This document shows positions 12,683 through 24,818 of a stretch of 64,000 nt of DNA, piece after piece. A program made the position numbers and the translations under genes. Location of the stretch: contig NZ_BMYK01000006.1 of NCBI RefSeq assembly GCF_014652235.1, positions 124,001 through 188,000 on the forward strand. The letters are read 5' to 3'. The notes under the pieces were generated by a model. It saw nothing but the letters and a program-made list of their open reading frames with translations, had not been told where the DNA came from and ran no database searches. Each line of letters starts with the position of its first letter. Position 1 is the first letter of the stretch. The DNA is from Pseudorhodoferax aquiterrae. GTDB taxonomy: Bacteria; Pseudomonadota; Gammaproteobacteria; Burkholderiales; Burkholderiaceae_C.

Positions 12683-13223
12683 GGCGGCTTCCTTGGTTGC
12701 GTGACCCGCCATGTTCGCAGCCTCAATCCAGCGTGATGCCACCGTCCTGGATGGCCTTGCCCCAGATGGGTGTGTCGGTGCGCAGCATGGCGGCGAAGGC
12801 GTCGTAGGGATCGCCCGCGGGCACCAGGCCCATCTCCAGCATGCGCGCGTGGATGGGCGCGGCGCGCACGGCATCGACCCAGGCGGCCGAGAGCTTGCGC
12901 ACGACCTTCTCGGGCGTTCCGGCCGGCGCGAAGATGCCGTACCAGCCATAGGGCTCCAGGCCCTGGATGCCGCTTTCCGCGAAGGTCGGCACCTGGGGCA
13001 GGCTGGGGTGGCGCTGGCGGCCCGTGACGGCCAGCACCTTGAGCTTGCCGCCCTGCACCAGGCCCATGGCCGAGGCCAGGTCGGGCCAGGCCGCGCCGAT
13101 CTGGCCGCCCGTCACATCGGTCAGCATCTGGGCCGAACTCTTGAACGGCGCGTGCACGGTGTCCAGCCCCGTCTGACGGCGGAAGGTCTCGCCCCAGATG
13201 TGGGCCGTGGTGCCGTTGCCGGG

Positions 13224-13254
13224 AGAACGTGCTGACGCCCTATTCGGGGTCGCG
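13224..13254 (+). repeat. Left terminal inverted repeat of the element
   Basis: This 31-base repeat is the exact reverse complement of 13462-13492. It includes the core TGACGCCCTATTCGGGGTCG. The match ends at 13224; the next base outward differs. Confidence 0.9.
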
Positions 13255-13461
13255 CAAGCGCCTTTGCGGGATGGGATGCAAGGCGCAGCGCGCCGCCAAT
13301 AGCCTCGCTATTGGCAAGCGCTGCAACGCCGCAGACCGCCCGCAAAGACGCTTGCCCGAAGGGTTGGGGCGAAATCGGGCGATTTCTTCGCGCGATCGCT
13401 TGCATGGGCATGAGCCCATGCGGCGCGCCCACGCTTCGAACTCATCCCGATTGCGCCCCAA

Positions 13462-13492
13462 CGCGACCCCGAATAGGGCGTCAGCACGTTCT
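13462..13492 (-). repeat. Right terminal inverted repeat of the element
   Basis: Exact reverse complement of the left repeat. The adjoining base 13493 together with 13491-13492 forms the TAG codon that ends the N-terminal Bug fragment on the minus strand. Confidence 0.9.
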
Positions 13493-14010
13493 ACGTGCCA
13501 TACGCATGTTTGCCGGGCTGCGACTTCACGAGTGCGATGTATTCGGAAAGCGTGTTGACGGGCGCGTTCGCGGCCACCACGAGCGCATTGGGGCCGCGCG
13601 CGAGCAGCGCCACAGGCTGCAGGTCGCGCGAGAAGTGGTAGGGCAGCGACCGCATCAGGAACTGCGTCTGCACGAGGTTGGTCACGCCGATCAGCAGGGT
13701 GTGGCCGTCGGCCGGGCTCTTGGCCACGAAGTCCGCGCCCAGCGTGCCGCTGGCACCGGGCTTGTTCTCCACGACCACGGGCTGCTTCCACTGCTCGGCC
13801 AGGCGCGCGCCGATCTGGCGCGCGAGGATGTCGGTGGACACGCCGGGGCCCGAGTTCACGATGATGCGCACGGGCTTGCTGGGGAAATCGGGAGCGGGGT
13901 CGGCGGTCTGTGCGCTGGCGAATGCCCAGCCGCATGCCAGCGCGGCGCACAGCGTGCGACGCGCGAAAGAAGGTTTTGCCATGTCGTCTCCGGTTGTGGT
14001 CGTGCGTGGC

Positions 14011-23582: not shown

Positions 23583-24797
23583 ATGCGCATCACCCGCCGC
23601 ACGCTGGCGCTGTCCACCACCGCCCTGGCCGGCAGCTTGCTGGCCCCCCTCGCCTTCGCCCAGAAGCAGTACGACCCCGGTGCCAGCGACACCGAGATCC
23701 TGCTCGGCATCCCGATGCCGCTGTCGGGCCCGGTGTCGGGCTACTCCATCATCGGCAAGGTGGCCGAGGCCTATTTCGCGCGGGTCAATGCGCAGGGCGG
23801 CATCCACGGCCGCAAGGTCAAGCTGCTCATGGTCGACGACCAGTACTCGCCGCCCAAGACCGTGGAGGTGGCGCGCCGCCTGGTCGAGCAGGAGCAGATC
23901 CTGGCCTGGTTCAGCAGCCTGGGAACGGCCAGCAACATGGCGATCCAGCGCTACATGAACGCCAAGAAGGTGCCGCAGCTGTTCCTGCAAAGCGGCGCCA
24001 GCCAGTTCGACAACGCCAAGCAGTACCCCTGGACCACGCCCATGCTGGGCAGCTACCGTGGCGAGGGCAAGGTGTTCGCCAGCCACATCGCGGCCAACAA
24101 GCCCGGCGCCAAGGTCGCGATCCTGATGCAGAACGACGACCTGGGCCGCGAGATCCTGAAGGGCCTGCAGGAAGGTCTGGCCGGCAAGAATGCGAGCCTG
24201 GTGGCGCAGGCCACCTTCGAGGTGACCGACCCCACGGTGGACTCGCAGATCGTGCAGCTCAAGGCCTCAGGCGCCGACGTGCTGGTGCTGGCGTCCACGG
24301 CGCGCACCACGGCCCAGGCCCTGCGCAAGGCGGCCGAGATCGGCTGGACACCCGAGCGCTACGTGAACATCGCCGGCGCCTCGGTCAAGATGGCCATGGA
24401 GCCGGCCGGTGCCGACAAGGCCAAGGGCGCGATCACGCTGGCCTACACCAAGGACCCCGGCTCCAAGGCCTGGGACAACGACCCCGAGATGAAGGCCTAC
24501 AAGGACCTGCTCAAGACCTACGCGCCCGGCGTGGACCCGCTCAACAGCTCGGGCGTGACGGGCTACGTGGCAGCCCAGCTCATGGCCCACGTGCTGCGCG
24601 AGTGCGGCGACAAGCTCACGCGCGAGAACATCCGCCGCATCGCGAGCAACCTCCAGAACCCCAAGGTGGAGCTGCTGCTGCCCGGCGTGACGATCGCCAA
24701 CAGCGCCGAGGACCTGCATGCCGTGGCCGCCATGCAGCCGGTGCGCTACAACGGGGTGGACCTGGAGCCGATCGGGAAAGTGGAGAGCCTGAAGTAG
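23583..24797 (+). CDS. ABC transporter substrate-binding protein (branched-chain amino acid type, Peripla_BP_6)
   Basis: A 404-residue periplasmic receptor. A signal peptide with basic start RITRRTLALSTTALAGSLL is cleaved after PLAFA. The mature part has ILLGIPMPLSGPVSGYSIIG, GGIHGRKVKLLMVDDQYSP and AILMQNDDLGREILKGLQEG, the two-lobe leucine-binding-protein fold. It is an orphan here, with no permease or ATPase beside it, and is followed by a strong terminator. It may use the LivHMGF proteins of another locus, or act with the upstream LysR regulon; ligand unknown. Confidence 0.9.
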   Translation: MRITRRTLALSTTALAGSLLAPLAFAQKQYDPGASDTEILLGIPMPLSGPVSGYSIIGKVAEAYFARVNAQGGIHGRKVKLLMVDDQYSPPKTVEVARRLVEQEQILAWFSSLGTASNMAIQRYMNAKKVPQLFLQSGASQFDNAKQYPWTTPMLGSYRGEGKVFASHIAANKPGAKVAILMQNDDLGREILKGLQEGLAGKNASLVAQATFEVTDPTVDSQIVQLKASGADVLVLASTARTTAQALRKAAEIGWTPERYVNIAGASVKMAMEPAGADKAKGAITLAYTKDPGSKAWDNDPEMKAYKDLLKTYAPGVDPLNSSGVTGYVAAQLMAHVLRECGDKLTRENIRRIASNLQNPKVELLLPGVTIANSAEDLHAVAAMQPVRYNGVDLEPIGKVESLK

Positions 24798-24818
24798 TCA
24801 GCGCCCCACAAGCGTCAA

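Follow-up and report, generated by a model that had tools for sequence, protein, structure and literature searches.

A MITE with a conserved two-hairpin body and differing ends, inserted in a Bug gene of Pseudorhodoferax aquiterrae

The usual way to group MITEs is by their ends, since these are read by the transposase. Correia/NEMIS and ERIC elements, which are short, have inverted ends and are dispersed in bacterial genomes, are not known to share the ends, length or target of the family described here. A MITE was also reportedly found by Mattes et al. (2008) in the genome of Polaromonas sp. JS666. The record of that title holds 11 near-full and at least two partial copies of the present family; given the 2008 report, the end-type of the element studied here (type A) may therefore already be in print, and the two may be the same element. 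The review PMC10969869 cites a 2008 paper for a MITE in JS666 and includes Correia and ERIC elements. According to this review MITEs are typically AT-rich, and the bacterial MITEs with an IS partner resemble ours in being small and without transposase, in their terminal inverted repeats and target duplication, and in the existence of an IS with similar ends. Our family differs from those of the review in being GC-rich and in having an interior more conserved than its ends across end-types. Among eukaryotes, the piggyBac-type CMITEs of corals (PMC2872659) are a precedent: in them a conserved internal region is flanked by differing, less conserved ends. They are set apart from our family by being eukaryotic and about 100 bp long, with a TTAA target and a piggyBac partner. 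Searches of open-licence literature, outside which most subscription journals lie, gave no bacterial description of the present family, which is weak evidence of absence.

The stretch of DNA analysed (hereafter the window) is 64,000 nucleotides long and comes from contig NZ_BMYK01000006.1 of P. aquiterrae. The features discussed below are, in window coordinates:

13224..13492, + strand: the MITE in full; its strict ends are at 13225 and 13491 (267 bp), with a terminal A and T outside them
13224..13254, + strand: left terminal inverted repeat (31 bp), to which the right repeat is identical when reverse-complemented
13462..13492, - strand: right terminal inverted repeat, 31 bp
13254..13355, + strand: inner hairpin 1, holding the core module (13266-13341) common to elements with other end-types
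13363..13462, + strand: inner hairpin 2, in which the segment ACTCATCCCGATTGC is invariant; in inverted orientation it is no more than weakly similar to the core module (E 0.075)
13222..13224, + strand: left 3 bp, the expected TNA site; GGA, no match to TNA
13492..13494, + strand: right 3 bp; TAC, with TAG at the same place in uninterrupted relatives
13491..13982, - strand: 5' half of the Bug (TctC) gene, 163 codons and then a stop created at the junction
12723..13221, - strand: 3' half of the Bug (TctC) gene

A sequence-only reading of this locus had claimed exact inverted ends of 31 bp and no transposase. The outer 31 bp indeed pair at 31 of 31 positions, both on direct reading and in a repeat search; the latter also gave longer arms (13224-13296 and 13420-13492) of 73 nt that are 75% complementary. 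The family alignment places the strict ends at 13225-13491 (GAAC...GTTC), the outer A (13224) and T (13492) being each present in 91 of 93 family copies. None of the four ORFs overlapping 13224-13492 has a Pfam match at E 0.01, thus no transposase is encoded. Folded as single-stranded DNA the element reaches -117.8 kcal/mol, against -63.3 for shuffled sequences (z -14; 0 of 200 shuffles as good). Judged by its sequence, the element at 13224-13492 is a MITE.

Both halves of the interrupted gene match TctC (PF03401, 2.4e-27 and 3.5e-26). Within the genus (six genomes, P. aquiterrae, G000, included) and among the matches listed, the Bug gene is uninterrupted in three of the five congeners, G002, G003 and G004. 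In these the two flanks adjoin and a net 270 bases are absent, i.e. the 267-bp element plus 3 bp; the orthologous protein is intact in G002 (329 aa) and G003 (330 aa), and the frame is uninterrupted in G004. For G001 and G005 the matches listed comprise only distant relatives of the interrupted gene. The empty sites that the sequence-only reading had advised looking for in the orthologous gene are thus found, and the 269 bases, far from being present at this locus in all relatives, are missing from three congeners. Its claims of a genuine insertion, and of a non-autonomous element, agree with these empty sites and with the two TctC halves. Its figure of 270 bases for the in-frame rejoining is right. 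Where it gave the junction GT|PGNG, G002, G003 and G004 all have GTYGNG; their junction residue being Tyr and not Pro, bases at the junction have changed. The flanks of the window copy differ (GGA versus TAC) and form no target duplication, so that it does not seem to have been inserted recently. The insertion lengthens the Bug gene by 270 bp and gives it a stop codon at the junction, which makes it a pseudogene here.

The element is matched at least in part in 18 of 60 genomes (its own included). Full or near-full copies occur in G004, G008, G012, G018 and G023, besides P. aquiterrae, whose one full type-A copy is that of the window. A contig scan found the 25-base inner pattern at at least 120 loci in named genomes, and the family counts are accordingly lower bounds. 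The loci examined, with a plasmid copy and the window, contain 123 instances of this conserved inner 25-mer, of which 93 have paired ends; the copies, full or near-full, sit at unrelated places and make up the MITE family anticipated in case relatives carried copies. Of the 30 instances with no end pair about 20 are clipped by the locus edge and 10 have enough flank, three of these (L042, L043 and L068) having a pair of other ends. The length is 267 bp in 41 of the 93 paired copies and 264-270 bp in 78. Hosts among 80 loci listed are Comamonas, Acidovorax, Paracidovorax, Curvibacter, Polaromonas, Xenophilus, Hydrogenophaga, Rhodoferax, Roseateles, Paucibacter, Simplicispira, Ramlibacter and others; the copies come from Burkholderiales, mostly Comamonadaceae. 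The element matched none of the phage records searched and one plasmid record, NZ_CP083452.1 of Comamonas odontotermitis, at three places. The 32-base consensus end gave weak matches in 44 plasmid records, the best one (E 0.2) again on NZ_CP083452.1.

Several copies deserve mention individually. The closest relative copy found (L035/L006, G004:C109:44613-44880) is 89% identical to the window element; it adjoins sequence matching the Bug gene at 70% which belongs to another gene, probably because Bug genes are so numerous. Copies also occur in records that bear the labels of quite different bacteria, L039, L065, L087 (MAG titled Desulfovibrionaceae) and L108 (record titled Pantoea sp. 18069), for which misbinned or mislabelled contigs, or else transfer, may be suggested. 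Comamonas composti (G060) has 352 end-like sites, against 3 for the reversed pattern, and its end pairs, among the matches listed, span 267, 158, 63, 55 and 51 bases. These graded spans, together with short forms of about 55, 70 and 158 bp having the same ends (e.g. G060 C1:143275-143329 and C1:98543-98700; also L117:5634-5703), are a deletion series down to near-bare hairpins. At G018:C9:19039-19077 two type-A ends lie 3 bases apart, making a bare hairpin of 39 bp. An 838-bp end pair in L117 was considered as an autonomous element and rejected, its main ORF being an FMN reductase; by eye, a short form of about 70 bp stands at the left of this pair.

Identical 3-bp flanks surround 52 of the 93 paired copies. 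All are TNA, usually within CTNAG (TTA 21, TAA 19, TCA 8, TGA 4), and agreement never extends over 4 bp (0/93); the remaining 41 copies have no identical flanking 3-mer. Position by position, C is found at -4 in 60 copies and G at +4 in 69, while T stands at -3 in 78 and A at +3 in 74. The terminal A and T of the element vary less than the two bases last named, with which the duplication begins and ends; this is a hint that the terminal pair moves along with the element.

A full-length IS sharing the ends had also been proposed as a check. Ends of the GA(A/G)nnTG kind were sought at 14 transposase loci. Ten of these have them in pairs, and no ends were found at L282, L279, L280 and L283. The same TNA lies on both sides in eight of the ten ISs, C precedes nine and G follows all ten:

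L168, Paracidovorax wautersii: 841 bp, TCA on both sides
L177, Comamonas composti: 848 bp, TGA / TCA, unequal
G020, five ISs (all strong hits there): 845-846 bp; TCA, TTA, TAA, TTA and TTA, each on both sides
G049: 859 bp, TAA on both sides
G056: 870 bp, TGA / TAA, unequal
G030: 1182 bp, TTA on both sides

The second ORFs of L177 (155.5 bits) and L168 (134.3 bits) exceed the 110-bit cut-off of NF033580 (IS5); PF01609 is found at both loci, and PF13340 in the first ORF of L177 and at L168. The TNA-duplicating partners may belong to the IS1031-like subgroup of IS5. In C. composti the left IS end equals both MITE ends at 17 of 18 bases, and the figure for the right IS end is 14 of 18, while the interiors of IS and MITE do not match. 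The ends of the window copy agree with this C. composti IS end at 13 of 18 bases only, which is also the highest value reached by random 18-mers in 100,000 trials. On these sequence grounds the partner of the family is of the IS5 type.

The full-length ISs with similar ends lie in other genomes, none with type-A ends being found in the P. aquiterrae assembly. There, the transposase search gave no close autonomous partner, just fragments of 39% identity where two contigs end, and the end-pattern search, whose pattern misses the ends of the window copy itself, gave no long pair among the matches listed. The IS5-like fragments (G000:C15:2-430 and C16:2-430; L280 and L283) probably come from a repeated IS at which the assembly broke. 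One of them runs into an end that reads, inverted, GAGGGTGTATCTAAAATG and then TCAG; by eye this end has 15 of 18 bases in common with the GAGGGTGTTTCCGAAATG ends of six other P. aquiterrae elements, and does not agree with type A. The end of one fragment was also noted to resemble the ends of GAGGGTGT elements. By eye again, the GGCAACGCTGAA kind has an IS with similar ends at L184 of G018, and the GGGCCTGTTARCG kind has such ISs in G023. The PF13340 copies of G023 were considered as type-A partner and rejected, since they carry other ends (CTAGGGCCTGTTCACG; about 835 bp).

Pieces of the interior alone match many genomes. In G030 the interior lies in elements of about 165 bp with quite different ends, GGCAACGCTGAAYAAG, and still other ends are found elsewhere. 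When 14 representatives were compared (91 pairs), the interiors reached z of 5 or more in 47 pairs and the ends in 3; 34 pairs combine such an interior with an end z below 2. The core motif AAGGCG, sought between 40 and 70 bp from the end with one mismatch allowed, stands at 54-56 bp in 14 of 14 representatives. When compared with the window interior, types I, J and L give no more than z 4.3, 1.8 and 2.7; for I and J the opposite arm may have been read. Across 43 typed loci, the core is 49-57 bp from a found end in 29 (three of them via a second, outer repeat); eight have it at another distance, two have no repeat and four no core.

The core model matches at least 38 of 60 genomes at E 0.01, the E-values of this RNA model (R1) being rough, with its apical stem missing through alignment gaps and one training row, L265, misaligned at the flank. 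In P. aquiterrae it matches 71 places (e.g. C25:19589, C2:140556 and C2:486402), which reduce to 64 clusters, some elements being matched in each of their two hairpins. The window copy apart, four of the 29 best core loci of this genome are at contig ends; among the other 25, typed by ends of the GA(A/G)...TC kind, 22 have a TNA duplication and three do not. These 22 bounded copies keep TCA or TGA duplications and so look recently mobile. The end kinds in own-genome copies are GAGCTTGAGAGG, GAGCTTGTGRAG, GAGGGTGTTTCCG, GAACGTGTGAAYG, GAAGCTGTGAAYG and, once, GGAGCGTGGACGG. In some elements the two hairpins match the core model in opposite orientation, e.g. at G000:C46:24612-24689 (+) and 24724-24798 (-), which suggests an inverted duplication as the origin of the two-hairpin body.

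The reading that we favour, with a probability of roughly 0.86, is that of a MITE moved in trans by an IS5-family transposase and inserted at CTNAG, with TNA duplication, into the Bug gene, its two-hairpin body being kept. The sequences themselves show that the element was inserted, that empty sites and a family of copies exist, and that this family has the duplication and ISs with similar ends; that the IS5 transposase moves the element is what we infer. The transposase would be supplied by an IS of about 840-870 bp, would recognise GARCSTGTTYACG-like ends and would duplicate 3 bp on insertion; landing in the Bug gene, the MITE would have lengthened and stopped it as described above. Its interior would be, instead of a shrunken transposase gene, a palindromic body of two hairpins whose length and register are retained; this body may matter for transposition or survival, and its first hairpin is met again in elements with other ends. 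An ordinary deletion MITE, i.e. an IS5-family IS that lost its middle and whose conserved interior is leftover IS sequence, seems to us improbable. The kind of ends and the target are indeed those of extant ISs, but when three ISs were compared the sole good match was in the terminal 17 bases (E 3e-5), followed by matches at E 0.008 (also an end) and 0.03, and the interior is common to elements with other ends instead.

The pairing of the two arms bears on a further alternative, a structured RNA gene or RNA regulatory element with a selected fold that is carried by transposition. In alignment A1 (from 85 copies of 255-275 bp, 38 less than 90% alike were kept and the least similar, L049, dropped) 95.8% of cells pair across the 37 diverse copies, and double changes affect 59 of 97 pairs (502 cells versus 139 in shuffles). 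The covariation score is 0.389 versus 0.131 when shuffled, with 0 of 500 shuffles as high, a contrast that kinship can inflate; slid versions of the structure score 0.05-0.09, the true register being favoured since it was derived from the same sequences. This strong covariation, like the RNA fold of the element (z -16.9), is what a structured RNA would give. An RNA is nevertheless expected to tolerate G-U on its own strand, and among 3589 cells G-U (66) and A-C (71) show no overall strand bias (222 and 217 expected from column composition), hairpin 1 leaning to G-U (40:22) and hairpin 2 the opposite way, to A-C (10:30). Thus overall both strands count alike, which argues for a DNA palindrome rather than an RNA. 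The Rfam search of 12900-13800 gave no family match, its two matches (E 0.7) lying far below gathering. We disfavour the structured RNA and regard it as very improbable. In type A, 27 nearest-neighbour comparisons gave 217 double pair changes and 204 others; we read the double changes as arms correcting each other or as strong selection for the palindrome, which the data do not separate. Such frequent joint change speaks against a diversity of ends created by recombination that pasted one interior between the ends of different ISs, and so do possible intermediates: the GAACTTGTCCGTG ends of L137, for instance, bridge type A and L068 (end z relative to the window, 4.8 and 3.8). Recombination would account well for types B, C, E, F, G and H, with end z of at most 1.2 against the window and interior z from 8.8 to 19.5; we consider it unlikely, with a real share of the odds, compared with gradual joint change of the arms. 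Under our favoured reading of movement by an IS5-family transposase, the ends may change over time to suit different IS5-like transposases. A wider and more tentative proposal, to which we give a little under even chances, is a Burkholderiales-wide MITE superfamily with one hairpin body and its core about 50-57 bp from the ends, in which the ends would repeatedly have changed to match different IS5-like transposases and the body, not the ends, would define the lineage. Through hairpin template switching one arm would rewrite the other; both ends could then change jointly, and the element could pass to another transposase.

To interpret the element as a MITE is ordinary. Less ordinary is an interior hairpin at a near-fixed distance from many unrelated ends, including those of the 22 well-bounded copies in its own genome. 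The interior seems to outlive the ends, here in bacteria and with IS partners identified for some end-types. With this population within one genome, and with the partners, the way in which non-autonomous elements change masters and the role of the inner hairpins become open to test. For P. aquiterrae it would unite the 71 core-module places (64 clusters) as one kind of mobile element, 22 of them with boundaries established.
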